This document shows, in pieces, positions 43,640-64,000 of a stretch of DNA of 64,000 nt (positions are counted from its first letter, which is position 1; each line of letters opens with the position of its first letter). The translations under genes were made by a program, and so were the position numbers. Below the pieces are notes generated by a model, which did no database searches, had not been told where the DNA came from, and saw only the letters and a list, made by a program, of their open reading frames with translations. The stretch is from Arthrobacter ipis (GTDB lineage: Bacteria; Actinomycetota; Actinomycetes; Actinomycetales; Micrococcaceae), in the NCBI RefSeq assembly GCF_014694315.1, contig NZ_JAAOXD010000009.1, forward strand, positions 320,575 through 384,574, read 5' to 3'.

Positions 43640-43787
43640 CCGCACCGCTGGCAGCTGCCGCCCTGGTGCGCGACCACTCCGCTATTAGGTCTGACGCATG
43701 TACTAGTTGTCCATTTTATGGTTACTCTGTGAATTAATGGCGTTCGGTCCTGGACCGGATACACCGGGCGGAGGAAAGGCATCCACA

Positions 43788-44705: not shown

Positions 44706-44732
44706 CGGTTGCCTCATGGACATGACCTGTCC

Positions 44733-47591: not shown

Positions 47592-47625
47592 TTGCCCCCG
47601 CCAGCGCGTTCCCGTCACGGCATAC

Positions 47626-48453
47626 TCAACCGAGGTCCCCGCCTGCCACCGGGAGGATGCTGCCCGTCACATACGACGCTTCGTCGGATGCCATGAACAC
47701 GATCGGCGCAGCCTGTTCGTCCAGGGTGCCGTATCGCTTCAGAAGGGAGGACTCCACGGTCTGATCCACGATGGTCTGGTACCACGCCTTTTCGGTCGAC
47801 GACTGTGCTTCCGGTCCGCGCTTGACCTTTCTGGGCGGGGCTTCCGTGCCACCGGGGGCGGTAGCGACAACGCGGATACCGTGCGCGGCGACCTCCATGG
47901 CCAAGGACTGGGTCAGGGCGTTGACGCCGCCCTTCGCCGCGGCGTAGGGGACGCGGTGCATCCCGCGGGTGGCGACTGAGGAGACGTTGACGATGGTGCC
48001 CGCCCCCTGCTCGAGCATGGCCGGGAGCACGGCGCGGCAGGACCATAGGGTCGGGAAAAGCGAACGCCGGATCTCCCTCTCGATCTTCTCCTCGTCGTAC
48101 TCTTCGTAGGGGCGGGCCCAGATGGTTCCCCCCACGTTGTTGACGAGTACGTCAATCCTGCCGTGAAGGTCCAGCGCCGCGCTCACGGCCTGTTGTGCGC
48201 CCGTGAAGGTTTCCAGGTCCACGGTCACGGCGATGGCGGACCCTCCGGACCCTGACCTGTTCGCGGCTTCCCGGATCTCCTGGGCGACCTCGTGAACGAT
48301 GTCGGCGCGGTCCACAAGGACGACGGCGCCCCCTTCTGCCCCGATCCGCTCGGCGACCTTTTGGCCGATACCTTGGGCTGAACCGGTTACAACCGCCACC
48401 TTGCCGGCGAAGCGGCCGGGCGTGACGAACTGTCCGGCGTAGGTCGTAACCAT
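47626..48453 (-). CDS. benD: Benzoate cis-diol dehydrogenase
   Basis: A 275-residue SDR that oxidises and decarboxylates 1,6-dihydroxycyclohexa-2,4-diene-1-carboxylate to catechol with NAD. VAVVTGSAQGIGQKVAERI is the cofactor motif; NNVGG, SSVATRG (catalytic Ser) and the YAAAKGG motif (catalytic Tyr and Lys) are intact. The WARPYEEYDEEKIEREIRRSLFPTLW segment is typical of BenD. Its ATG overlaps the benC stop by one base (TGATG), so it is coupled to benC. It completes benzoate-to-catechol conversion with BenABC. Confidence 0.94.
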   Translation of the reverse strand: MVTTYAGQFVTPGRFAGKVAVVTGSAQGIGQKVAERIGAEGGAVVLVDRADIVHEVAQEIREAANRSGSGGSAIAVTVDLETFTGAQQAVSAALDLHGRIDVLVNNVGGTIWARPYEEYDEEKIEREIRRSLFPTLWSCRAVLPAMLEQGAGTIVNVSSVATRGMHRVPYAAAKGGVNALTQSLAMEVAAHGIRVVATAPGGTEAPPRKVKRGPEAQSSTEKAWYQTIVDQTVESSLLKRYGTLDEQAAPIVFMASDEASYVTGSILPVAGGDLG

Positions 48454-50027
48454 CAGGAAACTTTGCCTTTGGCGTCGATAGCCCCGGACATAGTGCCCTT
48501 GGCGTCGCGGGCGTGAGCCATAATGACTTCCCGGGCGCGCTCCTTGTCCTGGAGCTCGAATGCGGCCACGAGTTCGAGGTGGTCCTGGGCGACCCGCTCG
48601 AAGATTTCTGTGCCCTTCACGAAGGTCGCTGCCATCTGTGCGTGAACGTCGAGCCGTCGGTATGACTCCAGCAGCATCGGGTTATCGCAGATCGTGAAGA
48701 GGTACTCGTGGAACTCTTCGTTGGTCCTTACGTACTGTTCCGGGTCGAGGACCCTGCCCAAGTCGACGGCGCGTGTGGTCGCCTCGGCGAGGCGGCGGAA
48801 CTGGTTCAGCTGCTCCTCGCTGAGGCGGCCCACCATCAGTTCGGTCACCGCAAGTTCAAGGCCCATCCGCGCTTCCAGGTGGGCGAAACTGTCCTCCTTA
48901 CGGAATTCAAGCCGGCCGGTCTCCAGTGAAGAAATCGCCTGGACGCGACTGACCGTGTCTCCTTCGGTCTCCAGCTTCTCCACCGGCGCCGGCGCGCCTG
49001 TCTCGTCGTCGCCGCCAGTGGTTTCCTTCGGGGCGAAACGCTCGAAATAGAAGTTGGCCGGCCGGATGTCCTCGGTGTCCAGCCACTTGGAAACGGCGTT
49101 CACCATGGGCGGCGGACCGCACAGGTAAATATCGACGTCGCCGTCGTTCAGGTGGGACGGCTGAATGATCTGGGTGACATATCCCGTGTGCGGGGCGGAG
49201 GTACCGGCCTCGGAGGCGATGTAGTCCCAGGTGAAGCCCGGCAGCTTCGCTTCGTAGGTGCGCAGCCAGTCGAGCCCGACGATGTCGGCCTCACGGGAGA
49301 CGCCGTAAATCAGGTGGACCGCGGTGGCCGGCGGGTCTTCGGAGAGCTTTTCCAGGATTGACAGGAGGGGCGCGAGTCCGGTGCCGCCTGCGAGCAGAAG
49401 GAGGGGGCGCTTTGGTTCGCGGAGGAAGAATGAACCGTAGGGGCCGGTGAACTCAATTGTGTCCCCGACTGCGGCCCGGTCACGCAGGTACTCAGACATC
49501 GCGCCCTGCGGGGTTATGCGCACCATGAAGGACGCGTCCGCCCCCTCGGGACCATTGCTGAAGGAGTACGAGCGCTCGGCGTCGGCGCCCGGGACCTTGA
49601 TGTTGACGTACTGGCCGGGCAGGAACGCCAGGGCGTCCCGGTTCTGCACCTCCAGGGCGAAGGAGATCGTGGACTCCGAGTGCCTGTCCAGCTCTTTGAG
49701 GGTCGAGGTGAACGTGGCGGCGGAGGTCTTGGCGGATTCCGAAGTGGCTGGGATCTGGATGGCGAGGTCTGATTCCGGGACGGCCTGGCACGTGAGCAGG
49801 TAACCCTTCTCGAGCTCCTCCTCGGTCATGGCGTCGTCAATGTAGTCCCCAGGGTCAAACGAGCCTGAGTCGCAAAAGGCCTTACATGTACCGCAGGCGC
49901 CGTCGCGGCAGTCTGAGGGGATGTTGATGCGCGCCTTGTATGCGGCGTCCATGACGGTCTCATAGTCGCCGACCTTGATGACCTTGGTGACGCCGTCCTC
50001 GAAGCTGAGGGCTACCTGATGGCCCAT
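48453..50027 (-). CDS. benC: Benzoate 1,2-dioxygenase reductase with C-terminal FCD-like domain
   Basis: A 524-residue protein against about 340 for gamma-proteobacterial BenC. Residues 1-95 are a plant-type [2Fe-2S] ferredoxin (Cys40, Cys45, Cys48, Cys80); 105-205 bind FAD (RSYSFSNGP); 208-335 bind NADH (LLAGGTGLAPLLS, YLCGPPPMV). This part passes electrons from NADH to BenAB. After a linker (336-380), residues 380-515 form an all-helical region like the FCD domain of GntR/FadR regulators: LEARMGLELAVTEL, NEEFHEYLFTICDNPMLLE, QDHLELVAAFELQDKERAREVIMAH, with candidate metal ligands Asn436, His440, His483 and His505. There is no DNA-binding domain. Rhodococcus BopZ is known to have a long C-terminal extension. 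ATG at 50027 has AGGAGG upstream. Confidence 0.93.
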   Translation of the reverse strand: MGHQVALSFEDGVTKVIKVGDYETVMDAAYKARINIPSDCRDGACGTCKAFCDSGSFDPGDYIDDAMTEEELEKGYLLTCQAVPESDLAIQIPATSESAKTSAATFTSTLKELDRHSESTISFALEVQNRDALAFLPGQYVNIKVPGADAERSYSFSNGPEGADASFMVRITPQGAMSEYLRDRAAVGDTIEFTGPYGSFFLREPKRPLLLLAGGTGLAPLLSILEKLSEDPPATAVHLIYGVSREADIVGLDWLRTYEAKLPGFTWDYIASEAGTSAPHTGYVTQIIQPSHLNDGDVDIYLCGPPPMVNAVSKWLDTEDIRPANFYFERFAPKETTGGDDETGAPAPVEKLETEGDTVSRVQAISSLETGRLEFRKEDSFAHLEARMGLELAVTELMVGRLSEEQLNQFRRLAEATTRAVDLGRVLDPEQYVRTNEEFHEYLFTICDNPMLLESYRRLDVHAQMAATFVKGTEIFERVAQDHLELVAAFELQDKERAREVIMAHARDAKGTMSGAIDAKGKVS

Positions 50028-50157
50028 GATTTCCTCCTGGCTGGGGCTGCGTCCTCGCAACCCCGAAAGTTAGTGCTGTTATCTCGTTGACGGTGATGCC
50101 GGTCAGGATGCTCCTGACTGTGGCCGTGCCATCGGCCACGGCCGGCACGGCATGGCC

Positions 50158-50694
50158 TCAGACCATGTAGACATCCACGACGTGGTGGATGTAATCGTTC
50201 TTCAAGACAACCTTCTTCTTCATGATCACCGGCTCTTCGCCGGAGAGATCGATGGTGTAGAAGCTCGTGCCGAAATATGTGTCTGTGGTGTTGTAGCGGA
50301 AGTACAGGGTGAACCAGTTGAAGCGAACCTTCACCTGGTCGCCGTCGTGCTCCAGGATCTCAATATTCGTGATGTTGTGCCCGGTGCGGGGCTCGGGCAG
50401 TGACGTCGCCGAGGAACGGTCCGTTTTGATCCGGAACACCCGGTCCTCGATGCCGCCACGGTTGTCGTAGTAGATCAGCGAGATCTCGTTCTGAGGATCC
50501 TCTGTGAGCCGATCATCGACATCCCATGCCGGCATCCAGTATTCGGAGTCCGGGTGGTAGCACTGGAGCCACTCGTCGAAATGGCGGTCGTCGAGGAGGC
50601 GGGCCTCCTTGTACAGGAACGCACGCACGGTCTCGAGGGCGGCGATGTCCTCCGCGCTTTTCAGCGCGGGCAGGGGGTTAAGTAGGTTGACCAT
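50158..50694 (-). CDS. benB: Benzoate 1,2-dioxygenase small (beta) subunit
   Basis: A 178-residue ring-hydroxylating dioxygenase beta subunit with the NTF2-like fold. EARLLDDRHFDEWLQCYHPDSEYWMPAW, RTGHNITNIEIL and the closing YIHHVVDVYMV match BenB/XylY. It has a structural role in the alpha3-beta3 oxygenase. It lies 38 nt after benA and 130 nt before benC, in the order benABCD. ATG at 50694; the ribosome site (GAGAG) is weak, which may reflect coupling to benA. Confidence 0.94.
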   Translation of the reverse strand: MVNLLNPLPALKSAEDIAALETVRAFLYKEARLLDDRHFDEWLQCYHPDSEYWMPAWDVDDRLTEDPQNEISLIYYDNRGGIEDRVFRIKTDRSSATSLPEPRTGHNITNIEILEHDGDQVKVRFNWFTLYFRYNTTDTYFGTSFYTIDLSGEEPVIMKKKVVLKNDYIHHVVDVYMV

Positions 50695-50732
50695 TAATGT
50701 TCTGCAATCTCTCTGTGAGTCGGGGCGCTTTG

Positions 50733-52115
50733 TTAGACAGTGACCGACACGGTTTCGTTGGTGGACGCTTCCGCCTCCGTGAGAGCCTTGTCCATAACTT
50801 CCTTCCAGTACCCGTGCTGGATCGGGTAGAGCCCTTCGTCCTCAGTGCGAACGCCAGAGGCGATTACCCGTGTCATGCCCAGCGCCGTGGCCTGTTCGTC
50901 AGGGCCGGTGATCTCGTGGGTGGAGCCGCGCGACATGTCGTTCCACGGCGCCGACGTGGCCCAGTAGGTCTTGTTGCAGGAGCGGAACTCCTCGAGGTCG
51001 TCCGGTGTCGCCATACCGGTCGCGTTGAAGAAGTCCTCGTACTGGCGAATGCGCTTTGAGCGGTTCTCCTGGGACTCCCCCTTGGGGGCAATGCAGTAGA
51101 TCGTGACCTCGGTCTGGTCAGCGGAGATCGGCCGGAAGTGACGGATCTGCGAGGAGAACTGGTCCATGATGTAGACGTTGGGGTACAGGCAAAGGTTGCG
51201 CGAGATGTTGATCATGAAGTTCGCCATCTCCTCGCCGTACTTCTCGACGAGCTCGTCGCGGCGGTCCCAGAGGGGACGGTCCTGGGGGTTGGTCCACTCC
51301 TGCCAGAGCAGCAGGTGTCCGTGGTCGTAGGAATAGAAGCCGCCCTTGACCTTCCCCCATTTACCGGCGTCCATGGCTTTGGTCTTGTTGGCGGAGTCAC
51401 CGGCACTGCGGCGGGCTGTGGTCGCGGCGTAGTTCCAGTGCACAGCGGTGACATGGTAGCCGTCGGCGCCGTTTTCTGCCTGCACCTTCCAGTTGCCGTC
51501 GTAGGTGTAAGTGGAAGACCCGCGCAGTACTTCGAGTCCCTCCGGAGACTGGTCCACGATTGAGTCGATCACCTTAGTCGCGTCTCCCAGGTGTTCCTCG
51601 AGCGGAAGGACGTCCGCATTCAGGGAACCAAACAGGAATCCGCGGTACGAGTCAAAGCGGGCGACCTTGGTGAGGTCGTGCGAGCCCTCCTTGTTGAAGG
51701 TCTCCGGGTATCCGGCATTGCGGGAATCCTTAACCTTCAGCAGCTCCCCTGAATTTTTGAAGGTCCAGCCGTGGAACGGGCAGGTGAAGGTGGTTCTGTT
51801 GTCAGTTTTGCGGCGGCACAGCATCGCGCCCCGGTGCGAGCAGGCGTTGACGATGCAGTTGATTTTCTCGTCCTTGTCCCGGGTGATCATCACCGGAGTC
51901 CGCCCAATGTAGGTAGTGAAGTAGTCGCCCACGTTGGGAATCTGGGATTCATGTGCGAGGTAGACCCAATTGCCCTCGAAGATGTGCTTCATCTCGAGTT
52001 CGAATATCTCCTGGTCAGTGAAGATTTCGCGTTTTGCGCGGATGACTCCGTTCTCACGATCATCAATCACGGCGTCGGCAAGGACCTCACGGACACGGGT
52101 CAGGTTCTCGGTCAT
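50733..52115 (-). CDS. benA: Benzoate 1,2-dioxygenase large (alpha) subunit
   Basis: A 460-residue Rieske non-heme iron oxygenase subunit that dihydroxylates benzoate to the cis-diol. The Rieske cluster ligands are Cys92-x-His94 (ACSHRG) and Cys112-x2-His115 (CPFHGW). The mononuclear iron site is in [13 protein letters not shown], with His221 and His226 and the bridging Asp218. [14 protein letters not shown] and the [16 protein letters not shown] segment are BenA/XylX-like. ATG at 52115 was chosen for its GGAGC ribosome site; the upstream extension has none. It is the first gene of benABCD and divergent from catA. Confidence 0.95.
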
Positions 52116-52240
52116 CACGTGCTCCTTCTTCGGAGATTGGGGGCGGCAAGCGGCGTCCCGGGGGAACAGGGCTTCTGCCCTCTGAGGAAAAGGTATGTGA
52201 GCCATTCTTGCCCAGCGTGACAGCTCTCACATCAGGTAAA

Positions 52241-52260
52241 CCCCTAGGTTCGACCAAGGG
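52241..52260. promoter_or_regulatory. Inverted repeat in the benA-catA divergent promoter region
   Basis: The 331-nt region between the benA and catA start codons holds the promoters of both operons. An inverted repeat CCCTAGG-N5-CCAAGGG (arms 7 nt, one mismatch) lies 126 nt from the benA start and 187 nt from the catA start. It is a candidate site for the LuxR or LysR regulator of the cluster. Clear -35/-10 pairs could not be assigned. Confidence 0.4.
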
Positions 52261-52446
52261 TCCTTTTATGTAAGTTTTGATACCGAAAGGAGCGCTAATA
52301 GATACTTGTTTCGTCCTTATCCCGCACGTAACCTGAGATGGACGTCACGTGAAGCCGATGGCCCGGCGGGCCCAGCCTGCGCCGGCACGTCGCGGCGGGA
52401 TAGGAGCCCCTCCTGTCCCGGATTCAAGGATGATATGGAGATCACC

Positions 52447-53331
52447 ATGACCGAGATTCAGGCGGACATCCGCAAAGAGAATGAGGGCACTGCCGTAGAG
52501 GCCGGGTCGAAGGCCACCGAGCGCTTCGCCGCCTCGGGCAAGATCGCCGGCCTGGGCGTACCCAAGGAGCGTGTGAGCCTGCTCGCCGGAGCCCTGATCA
52601 AGGCTGCCAACGACATCGTCGTTGAGCACCAAGTCACCTATGAGGAGTACAACGCGCTCAAGGCGTGGCTGATCAAGGTCGGCACCGATGGGGAATGGCC
52701 CCTGTTCCTCGACGTGTGGCTCGAACACACGGTGGAAGATGTCAATTCCCAGGACCGCCCCGGCACCCGAGGCACCATCGAGGGCCCCTACTACGTACCG
52801 AACTCGCCGGTGCTCGAGTCCCCGGCTACTGTGGAAATGCGTGAGGGCGAGGAGGGCACACCGCTGCGCTTCAGCGGCCGCTTCACCGACACCGACGGCA
52901 ACCCGATCCAGGGCGCACAGGTCGAGATCTGGCACGCGGACGCGGCCGGGTTCTACTCCCAGTACGCTCCGGGCCTGCCGGAGTGGCTCTTCCGCGCTAC
53001 CGTGAAGGCGGATGACGATGGGCAGTTCACTATCCACACAATGCGACCGGCCCCCTACCAGATTCCCACTGACGGAGCCTGCGGGCAGCTGATCAATGCC
53101 GCTGGGTGGCACGCGTGGCGCCCGGCCCATATCCACATCAAGGTCTCCGCGCCCGGATACCGGCCGGTGACGCAGCAGCTTTACTTCCCCGGTGACCCGC
53201 ACAACGCCGATGACATCGCTTCGGCAGTCAAGCCCGAGCTGATGCTCGACCCCAAGCCGCGCCCCGATGGCGCGGCCGGCGAGGAAGCCGTTTACGACTA
53301 CGTCCTCGCCAAGGTAGGGCAGTCCAAGTAG
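52447..53331 (+). CDS. catA: Catechol 1,2-dioxygenase
   Basis: A 294-residue intradiol dioxygenase that opens catechol to cis,cis-muconate. The four Fe(III) ligands are Tyr170 (GFYSQY), Tyr204 (PAPYQIPTDG), His228 and His230 (AHIHIK). The N-terminal helical dimer domain precedes GPYYVPNSP and the VEIWHADAAG beta-sandwich start. ATG at 52447 has GGAG 6 nt upstream; the longer open frame is not needed. It is the first gene of catABC-benE, in the order catA-catB-catC. A hairpin lies 48 nt after its stop. Confidence 0.95.
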   Translation: MTEIQADIRKENEGTAVEAGSKATERFAASGKIAGLGVPKERVSLLAGALIKAANDIVVEHQVTYEEYNALKAWLIKVGTDGEWPLFLDVWLEHTVEDVNSQDRPGTRGTIEGPYYVPNSPVLESPATVEMREGEEGTPLRFSGRFTDTDGNPIQGAQVEIWHADAAGFYSQYAPGLPEWLFRATVKADDDGQFTIHTMRPAPYQIPTDGACGQLINAAGWHAWRPAHIHIKVSAPGYRPVTQQLYFPGDPHNADDIASAVKPELMLDPKPRPDGAAGEEAVYDYVLAKVGQSK

Positions 53332-53378
53332 CGGACTCCCGTATGCCTTGGCCATGGCGGCCACGGCCAAAGAAGCGT

Positions 53379-53398
53379 CCCAGAGCAAAAGCTCTGGG
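53379..53398 (+). terminator. Hairpin between catA and catB
   Basis: CCCAGAGC-AAAA-GCTCTGGG is a perfect 8-bp stem with a 4-nt loop, followed by CGTTTCT. It could act as a partial terminator that lowers catBC expression relative to catA, or as an mRNA processing and stability element. Confidence 0.6.
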
Positions 53399-53458
53399 CG
53401 TTTCTAACGTCTTCCGCCAATAGGCTTCGCCTCGTCTGACCCGAAAGGAAACGCGCCG

Positions 53459-54559
53459 TTGAAAATCGAACGGATTGAAGTGATTCCCTACTCCATCCCC
53501 TACACGCATCCCCTAAAGTTCGCGAGCGGCGAGGTGGCAAATGCCGACCACGTGCTGATCCGGCTGTACACGGACGACGGCGTCGTGGGAGTTGCAGACG
53601 CCCCTCCCCGCCCTTACACCTACGGCGAGACGCAGGAGTCCATCGGGACGATCATCGAGAAGACTTTTGCCCCGCAGCTGATCGGCCTCGAGATATTAGA
53701 CCGCGAGCAGATTCATGCGGTGCTGCGCCGCACGATCCACAACCAGGTAGCGAAGGGCGCCGTCGACATTGCCGTATGGGACGCGCTCGGCAAGACACTC
53801 GGCACACCGGTGCATAAGCTGCTCGGAGGGTACACGGACAGGATGCGGGTCAGCCATATGCTCGGCTTCCTGCCCGCGCAGGAACTCCTCGAGGAAGCCT
53901 TGCGCTTTGGAGAGGAATACGGCATCACCACCTTCAAGCTGAAGGTGGGCCGCCGGCCGCTGTCACTGGACGTGGAGGCATGCCGTGTGCTGCGCGAGGG
54001 GCTGGGTGACGATGTGGAGATCTACCTGGACGCGAACCGCGGCTGGACCGCAAACGAAGCCCTTGAGGTGCTGCGGCGGACCGAGGGTTTCGGGCTCACC
54101 CTGCTCGAGGAGCCATGTGACGCAAAGGAAGCGATGGGTCGCCGCCGCCTCGTCGACAAATCCCCAATCCCGGTAGTGGGCGACGAATCCGTCCCGACGG
54201 CCGGTGACGCGTCACGGGAACTGCTCTCCGGCGGCTGCAATGCCATCTGCATCAAGACCGCACGCTCTGGCTTCACGGAGGCCACGGAGATCCTCGGGCT
54301 GTGCACCGGGCTCGGCGTGGATGTGACCATGGGTAACCAGATCGACACACAGGTCGGCTCGCTTGCGACCATCGCCTTCGGTGCTGCCCACGAGGCCACC
54401 AGCCGCCGCGCTGGCGAACTGTCCAACTTCCTCGACATGGCCGATGATCTGCTGGCCGACCCACTCCGCATAAGCAACGGCACGATTGCGGTACGGGATC
54501 TGCCGGGCGTCGGAGCAGAGATCGACGACGACAAGCTCGCGAAGTACCGCCAGTCGTAG
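53459..54559 (+). CDS. catB: Muconate cycloisomerase
   Basis: A 366-residue enolase-superfamily enzyme that cyclises cis,cis-muconate to muconolactone. The KxK motif is Lys160-x-Lys162 (FKLKVG). Metal ligands are Asp191 (YLDANRGW), Glu217 (LLEEPC) and Asp242 (GDES), and the second general base Lys266 is in CIKTARSG. Length and motifs fit CatB; dipeptide epimerase and o-succinylbenzoate synthase are excluded by context. The TTG start at 53459 has AAAGGAA upstream. It is 25 nt before catC. Confidence 0.93.
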   Translation: MKIERIEVIPYSIPYTHPLKFASGEVANADHVLIRLYTDDGVVGVADAPPRPYTYGETQESIGTIIEKTFAPQLIGLEILDREQIHAVLRRTIHNQVAKGAVDIAVWDALGKTLGTPVHKLLGGYTDRMRVSHMLGFLPAQELLEEALRFGEEYGITTFKLKVGRRPLSLDVEACRVLREGLGDDVEIYLDANRGWTANEALEVLRRTEGFGLTLLEEPCDAKEAMGRRRLVDKSPIPVVGDESVPTAGDASRELLSGGCNAICIKTARSGFTEATEILGLCTGLGVDVTMGNQIDTQVGSLATIAFGAAHEATSRRAGELSNFLDMADDLLADPLRISNGTIAVRDLPGVGAEIDDDKLAKYRQS

Positions 54560-54584
54560 CCCCCAACCACCAAGGAGAAAAGTA

Positions 54585-54863
54585 GTGTTGTTTTTGGCCC
54601 GGATGGACGTGCAATTCCCATCGCATCTCTCCCCCGAGGACGTCACCCGCATGCAGGGGCTGGAGAAGGAGTACTCCCAGGCGCTGCAACAGAAAGGCCG
54701 CCTCACCTCGATCTGGCGGGTGGTCGGCGAGTACGCAAACTATTCGGTGTTCGACGTCGCGTCCAACGACGAGCTCCACGGTGTCCTCAGCGGCTTCCCG
54801 ATGTACCCCTACATGAAGATCAAGGTCACACCGCTCGCCAAACATCCCAACTCCGTCCGCTAA
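54585..54863 (+). CDS. catC: Muconolactone delta-isomerase
   Basis: A 92-residue protein that moves the double bond of muconolactone to give 3-oxoadipate enol-lactone. VLFLARMDVQFPSHLS at the start and YSVFDVASNDELHGVLSGFPMYPYMKIKVTPLAKHP at the end are diagnostic for CatC. GTG at 54585 has AAGGAG 8 nt upstream. Genes for the following beta-ketoadipate steps (enol-lactone hydrolase, CoA transferase, thiolase) are not in this window and must be elsewhere. Confidence 0.95.
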   Translation: MLFLARMDVQFPSHLSPEDVTRMQGLEKEYSQALQQKGRLTSIWRVVGEYANYSVFDVASNDELHGVLSGFPMYPYMKIKVTPLAKHPNSVR

Positions 54864-55001
54864 CGGATCTCAGCGGGATCTTCAGCGACTCTTGTTTCAT
54901 GGGCTTTGGAGGGAGCCAGGCCGTGCGTTTTGGGATGCTAGAACCTGCTCCCCCATGCTTTGCCATCCTTCTGCACTCTTTTCATCGCCTCAGGAGCAAC
55001 C

Positions 55002-56282
55002 ATGCCCCAACCCGCGAAGGCCCAGTCCACGACCAACAAGGGACCGGGTCCGGCCCACGGAGCCCAACCGCTTTTCGAGCGGCCCGGGGTTGGCCCGGCC
55101 GGGATACGCGACTTTCTCCGGGACATCGGCGCCCATTACGCCTCGAACGGGGTCGTCGGACTGGCGTTTTCCGCCTCCGGGCCGATCGCGGTCACCCTCA
55201 CTGTTGGTTCGCTCGGCGGACTGACGCAGGCCCAACTCGCCTCCTGGGTCTTCGCCATTTTCCTATCGGCCGGCGCGGCGACCCTGCTCATGTCACTGAT
55301 TTATCGCCAGCCGCTGGGCTTCGCCTGGTCCATACCGGGGACCGTACTGCTAGGGCCGTCCCTGCAGCATTTGTCCTTCCCGGAGGTGGTCGGGGCGTTT
55401 TTCTCTGCGGGAGTGCTGATCCTGGCCCTCGGTGCCACCGGAGCAGTCCGCCCGATCATGGCCGCGATTCCCGTACCGATTGTCATGGCAATGGTTGCGG
55501 CCGTGTTCCTCCGGTTCGGAACGGACATCGTCTCCTCCACCCGGACCGACCCCGCAGTGGCGGCACCGATGGTGGTGGCGTTCCTCGTGCTCGCCGCCGT
55601 GCCCGCACTGGGGAGGCATCTCCCTCCGGTAATCGGCACCCTGGCGGCGGGCGTCGTCGCCGTCGCGCTCAGCGGCCGGTTCGCAATGAAGGGTGGAGGA
55701 CCGATCCTCGCCGCCCCCGTGTTCACTGCCCCCGAGTTCACTTGGGCCGCCCAGTTGGAACTGGTAATTCCTCTGGCGCTCACCGTACTGGTGGTACAGA
55801 ACGGACAGGGGGCGGCTGTGCTCAAGGCCGCAGGCCACCGCCCTCCGATCAACGTTTTTGCGGTGAGCTCCGGGGTGTTCTCCCTGCTCAATGCCGCCCT
55901 CGGCGCTGTCTCGGCCTGTGTCACTGGACCGACCAACGCGTTGCTGACCTCCTCCGGCGAGAAACAGCGCCAGTACACCGCCGCGGTGGTCTATGGTCTG
56001 CTTTCTCTGGTCTGCGCCCTGATGGCACCCACACTCACGCGCCTCATGCTCGCCACCCCCGAAGCATTCATCCTGGCTTTGGGCGGCATCGCCATGCTGC
56101 GGGCCCTCCAACAAGCCTTCATCACCGCCTTTGCCACGAACTTCACCTTGGGAGCATTGGTGACTTTCGTCGTCACGATTTCCGGTCTGGACCTCTTCAA
56201 CATCCATGCCGCGTTCTGGGGCGTGGTCATCGGCTACGGCGCATCCCGCCTGCTCGAGCGCCAGGACCACGCTACGAACTGA
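55002..56282 (+). CDS. benE: Benzoate transporter, BenE family
   Basis: A 426-residue membrane protein of the BenE branch of the nucleobase/ascorbate-like (NCS2-fold) transporters, with about 12-14 hydrophobic segments. GFAWSIPGTVLLGPSLQHLSFPEVVGAF and VVQNGQGAAVLKAAGHRPPINVF are characteristic. ATG at 55002 has AGGAG 5 nt upstream. It follows catC by 138 nt on the same strand. Together with the AAHS symporter it gives the cluster two unrelated benzoate import proteins, as in other ben clusters that have both benK and benE. Confidence 0.92.
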   Translation: MPQPAKAQSTTNKGPGPAHGAQPLFERPGVGPAGIRDFLRDIGAHYASNGVVGLAFSASGPIAVTLTVGSLGGLTQAQLASWVFAIFLSAGAATLLMSLIYRQPLGFAWSIPGTVLLGPSLQHLSFPEVVGAFFSAGVLILALGATGAVRPIMAAIPVPIVMAMVAAVFLRFGTDIVSSTRTDPAVAAPMVVAFLVLAAVPALGRHLPPVIGTLAAGVVAVALSGRFAMKGGGPILAAPVFTAPEFTWAAQLELVIPLALTVLVVQNGQGAAVLKAAGHRPPINVFAVSSGVFSLLNAALGAVSACVTGPTNALLTSSGEKQRQYTAAVVYGLLSLVCALMAPTLTRLMLATPEAFILALGGIAMLRALQQAFITAFATNFTLGALVTFVVTISGLDLFNIHAAFWGVVIGYGASRLLERQDHATN

Positions 56283-56470
56283 CGCCGCCGTGCCTGATGC
56301 AATAGCCCCACCAGTGCCGGCCCTCGCTGCACGAGTAAAAAGCACTGATGATCGCCCCCCCTGCACGCCAGTCAGACGGCCGGCCGGGAAGAGTTAGAAC
56401 TCGTTTCTGACTGAGCGATCTCACTAGGTTCTGATGGTGCGAGGACCCTGCTCGTCGGGGGACTTTCATC

Positions 56471-56560
56471 ATGGTGAAGCCCGACCCGAATCGGGACCGT
56501 GCGCGGTGCCGTCTCTGTATTCGGAGCCACGCAGCCTGGCCTAACTGGCAGCTCTGGCTG
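56471..56560 (+). pseudogene. Possible transposase N-terminal remnant
   Basis: From ATG 56471 the frame MVKPDPNRDRARCRLCIRSHA, preceded in frame by RRGTFI, resembles the zinc-ribbon start of several transposases (C..C...MVKNGxxxxGxxRWRCxxCG). The first cysteine pair is not preserved and the match breaks off after 25 residues. The rest of 56283-57266 holds only the repeat copy and a recombinase fragment, with no intact gene. Confidence 0.3.
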
Positions 56561-56588
56561 CCCAGCTCACCAAGCCGTCATATGGGTT

Positions 56589-56669
56589 CTTATCGGCTCA
56601 CGGGTGCTCCGGGACGTCTCTGCGTTCCGCCATGTAGTCGCCCAACAGGCTGGCGATGAACAGATATGA
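56589..56669. repeat. Imperfect direct repeat, right copy
   Basis: The counterpart of 40817-40895, in the same orientation. The minus strand encodes LSYLFIASLLGDYMAERRD and stops a few codons later. The coding difference from the left copy (SYLFMPSLLDDYMADW) shows divergence at the protein level, so this is not a recent duplication. Confidence 0.6.
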
Positions 56670-56959
56670 CAGTGTCAACACCCTCTTTTTTTGGGCATTT
56701 TGAGCCCCACCATTCGAGTGGGACGGGCCTTTTGGGTGTTGTGATTCCCTCGCCGTCACCGGCCGTCGCGTTGTCCACTTGTGCCGACGTTCCCGGGCTC
56801 GCGCTGAATCCGGCGCGGCACTTCTGTCCCGAGCAAGCCGAGGGACCGGATTCAATGAACGTCATAGCCTTGCGACCTCCTTCCAACATCTCATGGGCGG
56901 AGACCACAGCAGAAGGCATGGCGCGCACGCCGCCCCAGAGAGCGCGCCCGACAGGGAAG

Positions 56960-57055
56960 GGGTTCGGCGCGTTCCAGCATGATTTCGGCAGAGCCGGCTT
57001 CCGTGAGCGCTCAGATCTGCATCGAGGCGTCCTGACGATTGGTGCTGATCCTCAT
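56960..57055 (-). pseudogene. Serine recombinase, N-terminal fragment
   Basis: Minus-strand codons from ATG 57055 read MRISTNRQDASMQI, a TGA stop, then ALTEAGSAEIMLERA. Resolvases and invertases begin (Y)aRVSTddQdl..Q..aL..aG.e.if.e, so the match covers the catalytic Ser strand and first helix, interrupted by a nonsense codon. It ends after about 35 residues. This is the third recombinase relic in the window and lies on the same strand as the one at 33.3 kb. Confidence 0.6.
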
Positions 57056-57266
57056 TGCCTTCCCTTCTGTCTGTCTCGTGTCTCCCTAACGCGTGCTGAC
57101 ACACCGCGGTGAGACCGACTTGTGGCACAGGACTGACGACGAAAAAGGTGCATTGTCGCGCTGGAGGCGGACGCTCCCTTGGAACTAGAGTTCGTGAGAC
57201 CCGCTGCCACAGGGTGAGGTGGCGTTTGGGCCGATCCTGTAGGTTCCCCAAGAAAAGGAGCAGGCG

Positions 57267-57989
57267 ATGACGACTAACGAGCCCACCAGCCAGATGTCCG
57301 GGAAGGTTGCACTCATTACCGGGGCCAGTCGCGGTATCGGTGCCGCCATCGCGACCACACTGGCAGAAGCCGGCGCGCACGTCGTACTGGCCGCACGCGA
57401 TGTGGACGCCCTGGCCCTGCAGGTCCAGACCCTTACATCCTCCGGCGGGCAAGTCACGGCCATGCGCGTTGATGTCACCGATGAGGACTCGGTGAAAACT
57501 CTGTTGACAGGGATCAAGGAGCGCTTCGGACGCCTCGACGCTGCGGTGAACAACGCCGCGGGCGGGGGACGCACTCCGGCGCCCCTGGGCGACTGGGCAA
57601 GTAAGGACTTCGACAGCGCAATAGCGGTGAACCTACGGGGAGTCTTCCTGTGCATGAAGTACGAAATCGAGCTAAGCGGCTACACAGCCAGCAAGTTCGG
57701 TGTCTCGGGCCTCACCCGCGTCGCCGCACTCGACTACGCCGCCCAAGGAATCCGGATCAACGCGATCGCTCCCGGACCGATACTCACCGACCGGCTCGCT
57801 GCGGCCGGCCAAGCCGCCCAGGAGCACGTGGCCTCAACCGTTCCGCTTGGCCGGATCGGCACCCCAGGCGATGTTGCTGCCGCCGCACTCTGGCTCTGCT
57901 GGGACCAGTCCTCGTTTGTCACCGGTACCGTTCTTACCGTCGACGGCGGCAGGCACGCGGGAACACCTGCCTTCCACGTCAGGAAGTGA
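57267..57989 (+). CDS. SDR oxidoreductase with an internal deletion removing the catalytic serine
   Basis: A 240-residue classical short-chain dehydrogenase. Cofactor motif VALITGASRGIGAAIA (residues 14-29), NNAAGG (95-100), the YxxxK pair Tyr139 and Lys143 (SGYTASKFG), and a normal C-terminus with NAIAPGPILTDR and VTGTVLTVDGG. Between VFLCMKYEIE (to residue 135) and LSGYTASKFG about 25-30 residues normally present, including the catalytic Ser and its beta strand, are missing without a frame change. The core fold and activity are probably lost, although the frame, start (ATG 57267, AGGAG upstream) and stop are sound. It could be a recent in-frame deletion derivative. Confidence 0.85.
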   Translation: MTTNEPTSQMSGKVALITGASRGIGAAIATTLAEAGAHVVLAARDVDALALQVQTLTSSGGQVTAMRVDVTDEDSVKTLLTGIKERFGRLDAAVNNAAGGGRTPAPLGDWASKDFDSAIAVNLRGVFLCMKYEIELSGYTASKFGVSGLTRVAALDYAAQGIRINAIAPGPILTDRLAAAGQAAQEHVASTVPLGRIGTPGDVAAAALWLCWDQSSFVTGTVLTVDGGRHAGTPAFHVRK

Positions 57990-58479
57990 CGGCGTCGAGG
58001 AGACGTCCGAAACGACCACCGGCCGACCTGGCGCCCATATATGCGCCCGATGACCGGCGGGTCATCCTCGCGCTCGGGGTGTGGTGCCACCAGCGGCTGG
58101 GGTCAGACGAATGATCCTCAACAAAGCGGTCACGTGCGGCCTGCACGTTCATCGGGTCGTCAGCCTCCAGGGACGGCAGGAATACGCGGCGGTGGAACGA
58201 CTTTTGCAACCGGTTCATCTCCGGCTGGTCTGAACCAACGACGAACTTAGGTACTCGACGCGGTGCACCGAAGGCCACGGTGTTGTCCTCCGTACCCTCA
58301 TCCTCTCCGGGAGTCACTCGGGCGTGACGGGTAAACCCAGGGTGTCGCATCAGATGGCGGAGTGTCGTGGCGAACGCGTGTTTCAATCTTGCTGGTCGGA
58401 GGCAACTCAAAGAATTCCCGGGAAGCATAGTGCCGGACCAGCGACCCGAATATGCGGCAGACAGGGGACATTCGCGGAA
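57990..58479. other. 490-nt region with no recognised gene
   Basis: Lies between the SDR gene and the 3' end of the leftward DoxX gene. A 149-codon minus-strand frame overlaps it (57979-58428; internal segment PKFVVGSDQPEMNRLQKSFH), but no family was recognised and it overlaps the end of the SDR gene. It may be a degraded gene. No repeat or RNA was noticed. Confidence 0.45.
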
Positions 58480-58899
58480 TTAGCTGATGTTGAAGAGTGG
58501 GCCGGTGATGCCGGGATTAGTGCCAGCGCCTAAGGCGGCGAACGCTGCAAACATCACAAGTGCGGCCCCGGCCAGTGCCAGATCCTTGTAGAAATGCACC
58601 CGTTCCATGGCGCGGTTCTGGGGTTCGCTTTCCTTCCAGAAGGGGTGCATCCAAAAGGCGGTCACCATGAGAAACAGGAAGAGTATCAACGCGCCGAGGT
58701 CCGGCCATACCCCAAGCACAACCATCAGCGAACCAACGGCCATCTGGACGCCCGTAGCGACCACGAGAAACTCCGCTGCTGGCACCCCGCGGCTAGCGGC
58801 GTAACCGGCCATCATCTTCCGCCTGGTGAGGTGCCCGTAGGCCGACACCAGAAACAGCGCCGCAAAAAGCAGCCGCCCGATTACAACCAGAATGCCCAT
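58480..58899 (-). CDS. DoxX family membrane protein
   Basis: A 139-residue protein with four hydrophobic helices. MGILVVIGRLLFAALFLVSAYGHLTRRKMMAGYAASRGVP is the typical DoxX opening, followed by GVQMAVGSLMVVLGVWPDLGALIL and a region with FWKESEPQNRAMERVHFYKDLALAGAALVM. ATG at 58899 has a perfect AGGAGGT site 5 nt upstream, so the longer frame is rejected. DoxX proteins are linked to redox and thiol stress in actinobacteria, but a specific role is not established. Monocistronic. Confidence 0.88.
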   Translation of the reverse strand: MGILVVIGRLLFAALFLVSAYGHLTRRKMMAGYAASRGVPAAEFLVVATGVQMAVGSLMVVLGVWPDLGALILFLFLMVTAFWMHPFWKESEPQNRAMERVHFYKDLALAGAALVMFAAFAALGAGTNPGITGPLFNIS

Positions 58900-59130
58900 C
58901 GGAACCTCCTGAAGAGTCTCCATTCACCGCCCAAGCGCACCGGCAGCCCGCGCCACCCCGCCGATCCGGCAGGGGTCGCAGCGCTCCCGGCGGTACCGCC
59001 GTGCCTATCAGAATCAACAGCCGGTGGGTCGCTAATGTTCCTCAGGGACTGCCCTGATCCAGAGCAGTGACTCCAGTTGGGTGACGTTGACCGGTAGATA
59101 TGCCACAAAGGGGAGTGCAATAGTGACAGG

Positions 59131-59886
59131 ATGATCAACCAGCAACAGCTCTGGGACGATGACACCGCGAAACGGTACGACACGCCAGGCGAGGGAATGT
59201 TCTCCGCGGAGGTACTTGGCCCGACGGTAGAGGTCCTGTCAAAGCTCGCGGGCGACGGTCCGGCCGTTGAGTTTGCCATTGGCACGGGTCGTGTAGCCAT
59301 CCCCCTCGCGGAGACGGGGGTCCCTGTCAGCGGTATCGAACTGTCTCACGCGATGATCGCCCGTCTCCGTCAGAAGGTCGGAGAAGCCCGCATTCCCGTG
59401 GTCCAGGGTGACATGACGGAGGCCGGTGCGGGTGGGAACTTTTCCCTTGCATTCCTTGTCTTCAACACCATCTCCAACCTCTTGACCCAGGAAGAACAGA
59501 TCCGCTGCTTCCAGAACGCCGCCCGCCACCTTGCACCTGGCGGGTGCTTCGTCGTTGAACTCTGGGTGCCACAACTGCGTTCGCTACCACCCGGACATGG
59601 CGGAACCGTCGAGGTGAGCGAGCCCGGGTATCTCCTGGTCGATACCTACGATGTGCTCCACCAGCACGTCATCTCGCATCACGTGCGTTTCGGCGCGGAG
59701 CTGTCTGATGGCCGGGATGCCCGGATCGCACGGACACCGCACAGATATATCTGGCCCAGCGAGCTCGATCTCATGGCCCGGCTGGCCGGATTTGAGCTGG
59801 AATCCAGGTGGGCAGACTGGGACCGGAGCGTATTCTCCGCGGAATCTCGCAGTCACGTGTCGGTGTACCGGCTCGCAGCGCACTAA
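59131..59886 (+). CDS. Class I SAM-dependent methyltransferase
   Basis: A 251-residue Rossmann-fold methyltransferase. The SAM motif AVEFAIGTGRVAIPLAETGVPVSGIELS (about residues 45-72) replaces the usual LELGxGTGR by EFAIGTGR; motif III/IV region reads VQGDMTEAGAGGNFSLAFLVFNTISNLLTQEEQ, and the post-motif is HLAPGGCFVVELWVP. Substrate unknown; closest in style to small-molecule methyltransferases annotated as methyltransferase domain 25. ATG at 59131. Flanked by DoxX (divergent) and a DUF3846 remnant. Confidence 0.85.
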   Translation: MINQQQLWDDDTAKRYDTPGEGMFSAEVLGPTVEVLSKLAGDGPAVEFAIGTGRVAIPLAETGVPVSGIELSHAMIARLRQKVGEARIPVVQGDMTEAGAGGNFSLAFLVFNTISNLLTQEEQIRCFQNAARHLAPGGCFVVELWVPQLRSLPPGHGGTVEVSEPGYLLVDTYDVLHQHVISHHVRFGAELSDGRDARIARTPHRYIWPSELDLMARLAGFELESRWADWDRSVFSAESRSHVSVYRLAAH

Positions 59887-59908
59887 GGGATTCTGTTGGG
59901 TTCACGAG

Positions 59909-60143
59909 CACAACGAGGATCAACACCCCGCCCGACGCACTCCAGCTCCTCGTTGGCGGCCCGCTCGAGACCGTCATCCACGGCGACTGGCAAGTCTGCC
60001 TGAACGCCGAAGGAATGATCAGCAGTCTTCCCTCAATGCTGCGGGCCGCCCAGCTACTGTACGACTGCGGCCTGAATCTGTCCGGCTTGGTAAGTGGCGC
60101 CGCGGTCTTCTGGGTATGCATTGTTCCGCCTCCCAGTGAATGA
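59909..60143 (+). pseudogene. DUF3846-like remnant
   Basis: Plus-strand codons read TRINTPPDALQLLVGGPLETV, GDWQVCLNAEGMI, then SMLRAAQLLYDCGLNLSGLVSGAAVF. This follows the DUF3846 pattern (LxALQxLVGGxIExV...MYxNEEGkl..LPxNxxAT.L.......GDxIxGxxVf). It has no proper start; the open frame runs in from the 3' end of the methyltransferase gene. DUF3846 proteins are common on plasmids and phages of actinobacteria. The gap to 60253 is otherwise empty. Confidence 0.5.
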
Positions 60144-60253
60144 GGCGTAGCAGACCTTCCTGCCGCCGGAACTGCAGGGCCTTGACTGTCTCCCCCTCCC
60201 GGGGCCACTCTGCAGGGGTCCGGCAAGTTTCATCGATGAAGAGGACCACCACC

Positions 60254-62182
60254 ATGGGCCCGGCAGACCAGGACAACTTCCGTGAGCACCTCTCAAGGGT
60301 CGCTGAACTCGCTGCGCAGCTTCGGGTGGACTCCATCCGGTCGAGCACGTCCGCTGGATCCGGCCATCCGACGTCGAGCATGTCCGCCGCCGACCTGCTG
60401 GCGGTCCTCGTCACCCGCCATCTGCGCTATGACTGGGACAACCCGGACCTGGACGCGAACGATCACCTGATCTTCTCCAAAGGCCATGCCTCTCCCCTGC
60501 TGTACTCCGTCTTTAAAGCGGTGGGTGTCGTCTCTGACGAGGAGCTCATGACGGGCTACCGCCGCTTCGGCCAGCGCCTGCAGGGGCATCCGACGCCGGT
60601 GCTCCCGTGGGTGGATGTCGCGACGGGTTCGCTGGGGCAGGGACTCCCCGACGGTGTAGGCGTCGCACTGGCCGGGAAATACCTTGACCGGATCCCCTAT
60701 CGGGTGTGGGTGTTGTGCGGTGACAGCGAATTGGCGGAAGGGTCCATCTGGGAAGCCCTGGACAAGGCTTCCCACTATGGCCTCACGAACCTGACCACCG
60801 TCGTCGACGTAAACCGGCTGGGACAGCGGGGCGAGACCGAACTCGGCTGGGACATGGAGGCATATGCCCGTCGGGTTCGGGCTTTCGGCGCCCAGCCCGC
60901 CATCGTTGATGGTCACGATCTCGGCATGATCGACGAGGCCTTCTCTACCGCGGCAGAAGCACCCGAGGACAAGCCGGTTGTCATCCTGGCCAAGACCGTC
61001 AAGGGAAAGGGTTTCGCCCAGATCGAAGACAGCCCGGACTGGCATGGAAAACCCTTCCCGCCCGATATGGCTGAGAAGGCGATCGCCGAACTCGGCGGAC
61101 AAAGAACGCTGACCCTGCGGGGGCCTCTTCCAGAAGAAGGGTCAAAAGCGAACATCGATGCTCCGGGGGCAACCCTTCCCAGCTACAAAACGGGAGAGAA
61201 GGTCGCTACGCGAAAAGCTTACGGCGACGCTCTGGCGGCCCTCGGCGCCAACGATCCCACCGTTGTTGCCTTGGACGGCGAAGTCAGCAATTCAACCCAT
61301 GCAGACGAATTCGCCAAGGCGTTTCCCGGCCGGTACTTCGAGATGTACATCGCCGAGCAGCAGCTTATCGCCGCCGCAACCGGGCTCAGCACCCGGGGAT
61401 ATAAAGCCTTCGCTTCCACCTTCGCCGCGTTCCTCACCCGCGCCTATGACTTCATCCGCATGGGTTCCATTTCCGGCGTCGATCTTCGCCTCTCCGGCTC
61501 TCACTCCGGCGTCGAGATCGGCGCCGACGGCCCCTCACAGATGGCACTGGAAGACTTGGCAATCATGCGGGCCGTGCATGGTTCCACTGTCCTCTACCCC
61601 GCCGACGCGACCAGCACAGCTGCCCTGGTGCAAAGCATGGCGGAGACGTCCGGCATCAGCTATCTCCGAACCACCCGCGGCGCTTACCCCGTCCTCTACA
61701 GCCCAGCAGAGCAGTTCCCAGTCGGCGGTTCAAAACTCCTCCGGTCCTCCGCCAACGACGACGTCACCCTCATAGGTGCGGGGGTCACCCTTCACGAAGC
61801 CCTCAAGGCGGCAGAAATCCTCAGCGAAGAAGGAATCCGGGCCCGCGTCATCGATTGCTACTCCATCAAGCCCATCGACGCAGAAACGCTGCTCACCGCC
61901 GCAGGCGAGACACAGGGGCGCGTCATCGTCGCCGAAGACCACCACCCGGAAGGCGGCCTGGGATCGGCGGTCAAGGACGCATTACTCATGGCACCACCAC
62001 CAAGTGATTTGTCCATTGCGCACCTGGCAGTCCGCGGCATGCCCGGGTCCGGAACCGGACAGGAGCTCCTCGCCTGGGCAGGCGTTGACGCCCAGCACAT
62101 CGCCGAGGCAGCCCGACACCTGGTCAAGGCAGGCATCCTCGTCGGCCCCGATGGACCGGCCCTTACTGACCAAAAGCCTTGA
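60254..62182 (+). CDS. tkt: Transketolase
   Basis: A 642-residue thiamine diphosphate enzyme that transfers two-carbon ketol units between sugar phosphates in the pentose phosphate pathway. N-terminal ThDP half: DSIRSSTSAGSGHPTSSMSAADLLAVL, FSKGHASPLLYSV, ATGSLGQGLPDGVGVALA and the GDSELAEGSIWEALDKAS...DVNRLGQ metal-site motif. The Pyr half has MYIAEQQLIAAATGLS (catalytic Glu) and RLSGSHSGVEIGADGPSQMALEDLAIMR. ATG at 60254 has GAGG about 9 nt upstream; the open frame extends further without support. This form, with a single 640-residue chain, is found as a second, often catabolic transketolase beside the housekeeping gene. No operon partners. Confidence 0.92.
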   Translation: MGPADQDNFREHLSRVAELAAQLRVDSIRSSTSAGSGHPTSSMSAADLLAVLVTRHLRYDWDNPDLDANDHLIFSKGHASPLLYSVFKAVGVVSDEELMTGYRRFGQRLQGHPTPVLPWVDVATGSLGQGLPDGVGVALAGKYLDRIPYRVWVLCGDSELAEGSIWEALDKASHYGLTNLTTVVDVNRLGQRGETELGWDMEAYARRVRAFGAQPAIVDGHDLGMIDEAFSTAAEAPEDKPVVILAKTVKGKGFAQIEDSPDWHGKPFPPDMAEKAIAELGGQRTLTLRGPLPEEGSKANIDAPGATLPSYKTGEKVATRKAYGDALAALGANDPTVVALDGEVSNSTHADEFAKAFPGRYFEMYIAEQQLIAAATGLSTRGYKAFASTFAAFLTRAYDFIRMGSISGVDLRLSGSHSGVEIGADGPSQMALEDLAIMRAVHGSTVLYPADATSTAALVQSMAETSGISYLRTTRGAYPVLYSPAEQFPVGGSKLLRSSANDDVTLIGAGVTLHEALKAAEILSEEGIRARVIDCYSIKPIDAETLLTAAGETQGRVIVAEDHHPEGGLGSAVKDALLMAPPPSDLSIAHLAVRGMPGSGTGQELLAWAGVDAQHIAEAARHLVKAGILVGPDGPALTDQKP

Positions 62183-62515
62183 ACCGTGGTCTATCGGAGA
62201 CACCGGACGGAAGCGAGAAGCTCGTCCGGCGGCCGACCTTCATGGGACAGGACCCCGCACGGGCGCCGGTTGAGGTCAGCAGCGACCGTGGCGAGATCTT
62301 CTGGGCTGTGGACACTCAAGTCTCAGCCTTTCGGGGAAGTAAGCGCCGCGAGATAACGGCCCATATATCGCTGCGCTTCACTTTTTAACCAGCGGAATTT
62401 GAGACAGGTCCTTCCCCGACGGAATGCGCGACAGTTGCTGGCCACGCAAAGCTTCAGGTTAACCAGGTCGCGGCGTGCCAACAGGTGTCTCTGCTCCCGG
62501 CGCTGATCCGGTCTA
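62183..62515. other. Intergenic region, no gene recognised
   Basis: 333 nt between the 3' ends of transketolase and the leftward SnoaL-like gene. The plus-strand frame from 62179 (69 codons) overlaps the transketolase end and resembles nothing known. No strong hairpin was noticed. Confidence 0.5.
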
Positions 62516-62917
62516 TCACTCGGTCACAGTATCGGCATGGCGATGGGCCACTTTCCACTCGCCACCCTCCCGCCGATACACCTGGGTTGACCGCAAGGTG
62601 TATCTGCTCGGCTCACCGTTGATGGAGGTCGAGGTGTGCTCCAAGCCAGCGGTGTAGGCCATGGAACCCGCCACGTCATACGCTTGAAGCTCGAACGCGT
62701 ACGACGTGCAGTCGGAGAAGCGATTTTCAAGGAAGATGAAGGTCTCTTCGATTTCGTGCAGGCCGTAGGAGTTGCGTGAGAGTGCACCTAGGATGCTGAC
62801 GGGCTCGTTGCTGGACCAGATTGCCCGTCGTGGGGCGGCATCGCCATTGTGAAGGGCAAGCTCTGCCTGATAAAGCGTTGTCTTGACCCATGCGAGAAAA
62901 TCGTCTCGGTCGGTCAT
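62516..62917 (-). CDS. SnoaL-like/DUF4440 nuclear transport factor 2-fold protein
   Basis: A 133-residue NTF2-like protein. WVKTTLYQAELALHNGDAAPRRAIWSSNEPVSILGA is the usual first helix-strand unit, and YTLRSTQVYRREGGEWKVAHRHAD is the characteristic last strand pair of ketosteroid-isomerase-like SnoaL domains. No catalytic set can be identified. ATG at 62917. It stands alone; the flanking gaps (62918-63123 to the right) contain no gene. Confidence 0.82.
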   Translation of the reverse strand: MTDRDDFLAWVKTTLYQAELALHNGDAAPRRAIWSSNEPVSILGALSRNSYGLHEIEETFIFLENRFSDCTSYAFELQAYDVAGSMAYTAGLEHTSTSINGEPSRYTLRSTQVYRREGGEWKVAHRHADTVTE

Positions 62918-63123
62918 CCCGCCAATCTACCCGCACCGCACCGCCCATGCAATGGCTTTGAAAAGCACCTGCGGCGGGGTACGGGTCTCCATTCGTCGCC
63001 AAGTTGCTCCGGAACCCCTTCAGCCCGCGCCCGGCCATCTTCTCCTCCTAGGCGATCAGAGTCTCGCAACCTTCCCGCCTTGAAACGCCGCGAGGAGCGT
63101 CGCAGTAGAGGGATGGCTGCTTT

Positions 63124-63990
63124 CTAGTGTGCTCCTCGCTCGAGATCGGCTAGTTCTGATTCGAGTTGCTGGGTCAGGTTCCTTAGGCGCCGGATGTTCT
63201 CTTGGGAGACGCGCCCGGGTTGCGTTGTGACTTGTGCATCGACGTCGAAGACGGTGTTGGGGCTATGCCAGACGTTGAACCATTCGAGACCGTGGCCGAG
63301 AGCGTCGCGGGTAACGCCTTGAAGCAGGAGCAGCGGTTCCCGGGTGTTGATGTTCAACTTCCGGGCCAGGTCATGATCTGAAGACACTGCCTGAACCTGG
63401 CGGGGTCCACCGGCGGGGTGGTATCCGTGGTCGCGCATCAGGCTTAGGAGTGACGCGTTTTCCAGCAGCTCTACAGTGAAATGCGGGAAGAAGTCGCGGG
63501 GGACCCAAGTTCGCATGAAAGCCACGGGAAGGTCATCGAGGTAGCGAACCCGCTCGATTTTCCAGGTATTGGTGGTGTTGAGGGCCTCCACGCCGGCCAG
63601 GGGCGGCTCCGATGGTTCCACGGCGAGGACGTGAGTGCGCAGGCGCTGGCCGTGTGCTGCGGCTTGTTCGTCCAAGCCGCCGGCGCGCTGCACGTGTCGG
63701 CGAAGGACTGGTGTTGCGGCTACGACGCTGCCTCGGCCGCGCTGCCGGCGAATCAGGCCGAGGTCGGCGAGGCCGGACAAAGCCTGGCGAACCACGCTGC
63801 GGGAGACGCCGAACTGCCTTTGCAGCTCCTCTTCGGTAGGCAACGAAGAGCCCGGGGACAGCCCCATATCTACGATCTGACGGTGCAGGATGTCCCGGAT
63901 TTGGGCGTGGAGAGGACCTCCGTCCTCCCGGTTCAGAGGGCTGGTGCGTCCGGCCTGCTCTGCTGTTGTTTCTGCTGGTTCCAAGCTCAC
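63124..63990 (-). CDS. GntR-family transcriptional regulator with UTRA domain
   Basis: A 288-residue regulator of the HutC subfamily. The winged helix (about residues 26-92) has PLHAQIRDILHRQIVDMGLSPGSSLPTEEELQRQFGVSRSVVRQALSGLADLGLI. The UTRA effector domain follows (about 110-270), with WKIERVRYLDDLPVAFMRTWVP, REPLLLLQGVTRDALGHGLEWFNVWHSPNTVFDV. A C-terminal helix (VSQENIRRLRNLTQQLESELADLER) may be a coiled coil. GTG at 63990 has AGGAG 5 nt upstream, at the very edge of the window. Target genes are presumably to the right, outside the window. Confidence 0.92.
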   Translation of the reverse strand: MSLEPAETTAEQAGRTSPLNREDGGPLHAQIRDILHRQIVDMGLSPGSSLPTEEELQRQFGVSRSVVRQALSGLADLGLIRRQRGRGSVVAATPVLRRHVQRAGGLDEQAAAHGQRLRTHVLAVEPSEPPLAGVEALNTTNTWKIERVRYLDDLPVAFMRTWVPRDFFPHFTVELLENASLLSLMRDHGYHPAGGPRQVQAVSSDHDLARKLNINTREPLLLLQGVTRDALGHGLEWFNVWHSPNTVFDVDAQVTTQPGRVSQENIRRLRNLTQQLESELADLERGAH

Positions 63991-64000
63991 GTTGACTCCT

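Follow-up and report, generated by a model that had tools for sequence, protein, structure and literature searches.

Does an SDR gene of Arthrobacter ipis that has lost the segment carrying its catalytic serine, and that is otherwise open from start to stop, represent a young null allele or a shortened protein kept for cofactor binding or dimerisation? The original prediction offered these two options side by side. The gene lies in the window, that is, the whole stretch of 64,000 nucleotides that was analysed, where it begins with ATG at 57267, ends with TGA at 57989 and contains no internal stop. The relevant features are the following:

57267..57989, plus strand: SDR ORF of 240 amino acids, without 25 residues of the classical SDR fold; a probable young loss-of-function allele
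57254..57260, plus strand: AAAGGAG, a ribosome-binding-like sequence six bases 5' of the ATG; the same site lies 5' of both orthologs of the genome G102
57318..57341, plus strand: TGASRGIG (residues 18-25), the cofactor-binding motif, intact and conforming to the TGxxxGxG of classical SDRs
57549..57560, plus strand: NNAA (residues 95-98), the NNAG-type motif expected after strand beta-4, the same in the orthologs
57668..57673, plus strand: CGAGCT, the deletion junction, at which 75 bp are absent by comparison with the homologue L006
57681..57695, plus strand: YTASK (Y139-K143), the motif of the catalytic Tyr and Lys, intact and conforming to YxxxK

The Asn of VNLRG is also retained. The catalytic Ser that classical SDRs bear at the end of strand beta-5 is absent together with its segment: residues E135 and L136 flank the gap, and KYEIE meets LSGYTASK directly. 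The Pfam families adh_short_C2 (2.8e-55) and adh_short (4e-42) both match the protein, each split in two stretches. The intact reading frame, start, ribosome site and stop count against a null allele and, with the TGxxxGIG and YxxxK motifs, would suit a protein kept for another role. Nevertheless, the suggestion that an in-frame loss with intact signals is in itself unusual is not compelling, as one third of all deletion lengths preserve the frame.

The size of the loss can be read directly from the closest homologue, that of Arthrobacter sp. Bi83 (L006, genome G027): exactly 75 bp of it are absent from the window when two shared bases are counted once, which corresponds to the low end of the 75-90 bp that had been predicted. 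In BLASTN comparisons, the left homology stops at position 57673 of the window (893 of L006) and the right homology begins at 57672 (967 of L006); together with the two G102 copies, they place the break at 57672-57673. The Bi83 ortholog holds the 25 residues, has lost its own 5' end and is 88-90% identical in DNA to the window on both sides of the junction. The corresponding identities are 85-87% for the full-length G102 orthologs (L086 and L102), which also hold these residues. The dinucleotide CT (57672-57673) is common to both flanks of the deleted part in L006 and G102; in the G102 copies, the left flank reads CGAGCT and the right one CGGGCT. Slippage or end joining at so short a repeat could account for this, although such a mechanism cannot be proved from the sequences. 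Between 57550 and 57800, no direct repeats longer than 10 bases were found, and two imperfect inverted repeats of 14 and 17 bases are present. The split is also visible in phmmer searches of the PDB: among the matches listed, the query is divided at the junction and 24 residues of 7djs and 25 of 1vl8 are skipped.

A search of 206 Arthrobacter genomes (E <= 1e-40) recovered matches to the SDR in 21 of them, which depicts a patchy gene family. Eighteen of the 21 genomes contribute 19 full-length copies (two from G102); the remaining three are the window's own genome, G109 and G027. Since G076 and G162 encode the same protein, the distinct full-length orthologs number 18. All 19 full-length copies hold the segment with IVNM(S/T)S, including the catalytic serine; it measures 25 residues in 18 of them and 31 in L097, because of a longer loop. 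The full-length allele is thus present in relatives, and the description of the window gene as having lost its Ser segment in frame, with KYEIE joined to LSGYTASK, is borne out. The other copies are damaged in ways of their own. The G109 ortholog (L101, 1299-1961) is independently broken, with its N-terminal part and the rest in two frames and an internal loss, and keeps the serine segment. So does the G027 copy, in which unrelated sequence has taken the place of about the first 50 codons, roughly 600 bases from a contig start. Including a truncated second copy in the window's own genome, on contig C15, 4 of the 23 copies (19 full-length, window, C15, G109 and G027) are damaged at this cut-off, each differently. 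No intact ortholog was found in the window's own genome: the C15 copy is the sole other close match, and the next of the 49 SDR matches of this genome is only 45% identical. Among 72,556 plasmid records (E <= 1e-40), the 10 matches all have less than 60% identity. In the literature passages retrieved, neither this gene nor an SDR with such a deletion is described, and those found by term in the SimC7 paper (PMC4451461) do not bear on it.

In G021 and G106, a conserved gene of ~250-260 amino acids overlaps the start of the intact SDR (L126:8259-9044 and L130:7509-8270). The gene adjoins the SDR in some other Arthrobacter genomes too; its product is 93% identical between G021 and G106 over 240 amino acids and has no match in Pfam. 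It is absent from 5 of the 11 genomes searched among the 21 with an SDR match (the window's, G102, G027, G076 and G162). A link between the loss of this partner gene and the window allele was considered and rejected, since the absence from the four other genomes means that it is not specific to that allele.

The distribution of the junction itself was studied with a 23-base pattern searched in the 206 genomes with up to three mismatches, the backwards pattern serving as control. It occurs without mismatch in a single genome, the window's own, within a search that misses deleted alleles diverged at more than three of the 23 bases and fragments too short for the E <= 1e-40 ortholog cut-off. Twenty-one other genomes match only at three mismatches, and none of these matches lies in an ortholog from the genus search: 19 of the genomes have no ortholog, and in G042 and G027 the match is on a contig other than the ortholog's. 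The control pattern matches 11 of the 206 genomes. An exact junction restricted to one genome gives no sign of long maintenance and so speaks against the retention of a shortened protein.

The effect of the deletion on the protein was approached with AlphaFold2, using 29 sequences (the window protein and 28 related ones) and, for comparison, the same set led by L072, an intact Pseudarthrobacter relative that is 44% identical to the window protein and not an ortholog. The mean pLDDT of the window protein is 79.2 (61.9 to 79.2 over the five models) and that of L072 is 94.8. The L072 model has seven strands, with alpha-E at 108-135 and beta-5 at 139-144, whereas in the window model helix alpha-E stops at 124, beta-5 is missing from a sheet of six strands instead of the seven of the Rossmann fold, and residues 126-138, across the junction, fall below 50. 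The N-terminal half is confidently modelled (residues 11-90, block means 87-96). Partial folding of the window protein is therefore conceivable on the basis of this model, and NAD(P) binding by the N-terminal half would find some support in it; the loss of the central strand and the low values at the junction weigh in the other direction. A resemblance to solved SDRs persists in the window model, most closely to 7djs (TM 0.82, by query length); AlphaFold2 tends to return the fold of the family even for a damaged protein that would not fold. Since the C-terminal half of alpha-E, beta-5 and the catalytic serine are gone, the product is most likely unfolded or inactive.

The original prediction also held that everything around the gap is well conserved. 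This is largely so and slightly too strong: of the 125 compared columns in which all 18 distinct full-length orthologs agree, the window copy departs at 5. The departures, with residue numbers derived from the alignment, are V17I, A63V, A190S, S212W and L230H (alignment columns 27, 76, 234, 256 and 274). The last two correspond to these codons:

57900..57902, plus strand: TGG (W212); the C15 copy and all 18 distinct full-length orthologs have serine
57954..57956, plus strand: CAC (H230); the C15 copy and all 18 distinct full-length orthologs have leucine

A190S also occurs in the C15 copy, unlike S212W and L230H. The same leave-one-out count gives 0 to 6 departures of 143-149 columns for the full-length orthologs, so it is not the number of changes that is extreme in the window copy, but their kind (S to W, L to H). 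That W212 and H230 occupy invariant sites also argues against a maintained protein. The dN/dS ratios (NG86, 189 shared codons) between the window copy and L086, L102 and L095 are 0.17-0.18, versus 0.09-0.11 among those three; relative to L093, the window copy has 0.14, L095 0.14, and L086 and L102 0.11 each. The window and the C15 fragment differ over 96 codons by 12 nucleotides and 5 amino acids (ratio 0.27). Three-way counts of unique codons show no significant difference in kind (eight Fisher tests on four trios, p 0.14 to 0.55). Relaxed constraint on the window copy is at most suggested by these comparisons: either the deletion would be too recent to leave much trace, or the gene may not be under relaxed constraint. 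The lack of a significant excess of amino acid changes fits recency as well as retention.

The surroundings of the gene are fragmentary. Positions 57698..58093 (plus strand) have a duplicate within this genome, on contig C15 (L002:1503-1898; 396 bp, 95% identical). This copy is 5'-truncated and, because it begins 25 bases past the junction, it cannot show whether its source had the deletion. In the mosaic L002:1055-2091 of C15, a Beta-lactamase2-type hydrolase ORF continues out of frame into the remaining 3' part of the SDR, and a gene whose start and body are apparently in different frames follows downstream. In the window, the duplicated part is followed by a trace of that gene:

58094..58141, plus strand: 48-bp piece, 83% identical to the 5' end of the gene after the C15 copy; relative to C15, the window lacks 148 bp

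The SDR flanks (56250-57266 and 57990-59100) have only short or weak matches, in 4 and 5 of 58 other genomes respectively. A sequence 5' of the SDR gene, at 56668-56943, recurs in this genome as ~70% copies (C15:72186-72479 and C17:409965-410198), and G035 has shorter matches of 83-86% to it; the only ORF of this repeat (148 amino acids) has no Pfam match. No Rfam family was matched in 50000-64000, and no tRNA was found in 56000-60200.

Further upstream, 42248-56282 holds an apparent benzoate/catechol cluster with ORFs for dioxygenase components, an SDR, a catechol dioxygenase, a muconate cycloisomerase-like gene, a BenE transporter, MFS and LysR proteins; some of these names are presumed from the sequence. 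A role of the window SDR as the dehydrogenase of this cluster, presumably BenD, was rejected: a different SDR, at 47626-48453, whose serine segment is complete, adjoins the ferredoxin-reductase component and Rieske-type oxygenase ORFs. In the reductase component (48453-50060, minus strand), Fer2 and FAD- and NAD-binding domains are combined with an FCD domain at the C terminus, a domain known from GntR regulators.

Taken together, the window gene is very probably a classical SDR that underwent one recent 75-bp deletion, i.e., a young null allele. The gene is of the FabG or glucose-1-dehydrogenase-like type, and the deletion, for which slippage or end joining at a minimal repeat is the probable cause, left the frame open while removing half of alpha-E, beta-5 and the serine from a product that presumably misfolds and loses its function. 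As expected of a pseudogene, the gene carries a lesion relative to intact orthologs, namely the deletion of a core strand, which is probably disabling. Between the two initial options, the null allele is favored by a junction found in 1 of 206 genomes, the central strand gone from the model, gene remnants around and other copies broken differently; positive evidence for retention did not emerge. A shortened protein kept for a non-catalytic role, either to bind NAD(P) with the intact N-terminal half or to pair with another SDR (the many others of the genome would offer possible partners), thus seems unlikely, and that a classical SDR without beta-5 and its catalytic serine still folds, binds its cofactor and persists as a regulatory or dimerising partner appears highly improbable. 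An assembly or sequencing artefact hiding a full-length gene is very doubtful too, even if a single assembly of the species entered the analysis, given that the junction lies deep within a 434-kb contig, that its vicinity lacks longer direct repeats and that the clean loss of 75 unique bases is a rare error of assemblers.

The null allele is an instance of ordinary gene decay, and most likely one of several differently broken copies of a gene that breaks repeatedly in Arthrobacter rather than a new kind of protein. It nevertheless calls for caution in annotation: when an active-site strand is lost in frame, the remaining ORF still obtains high scores from family profiles and would therefore be called a working dehydrogenase. 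Like classical SDRs (PF00106/PF13561; NCBIfam PRK06172-type, FabG, glucose 1-dehydrogenase), the window protein has the Rossmann N-terminal half, TGxxxGIG, the NNAG-type motif, the Asn, YxxxK and the C-terminal part; unlike them, it is devoid of beta-5, half of alpha-E and the catalytic Ser. Its best solved relative is 7djs, an isopiperitenol dehydrogenase. The best 25 NCBIfam profiles match it in two stretches and the intact orthologs L126 and L127 in one, but their cut-offs do not separate these proteins, as the window protein and L126 reach none and L127 one. The window gene resembles ordinary bacterial pseudogenes of the kind that short deletions produce in its single short deletion at a tiny microhomology and in having relatives with other broken copies. 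It differs from them in that its frame happens to be kept, so that automatic annotation would call it a normal SDR.
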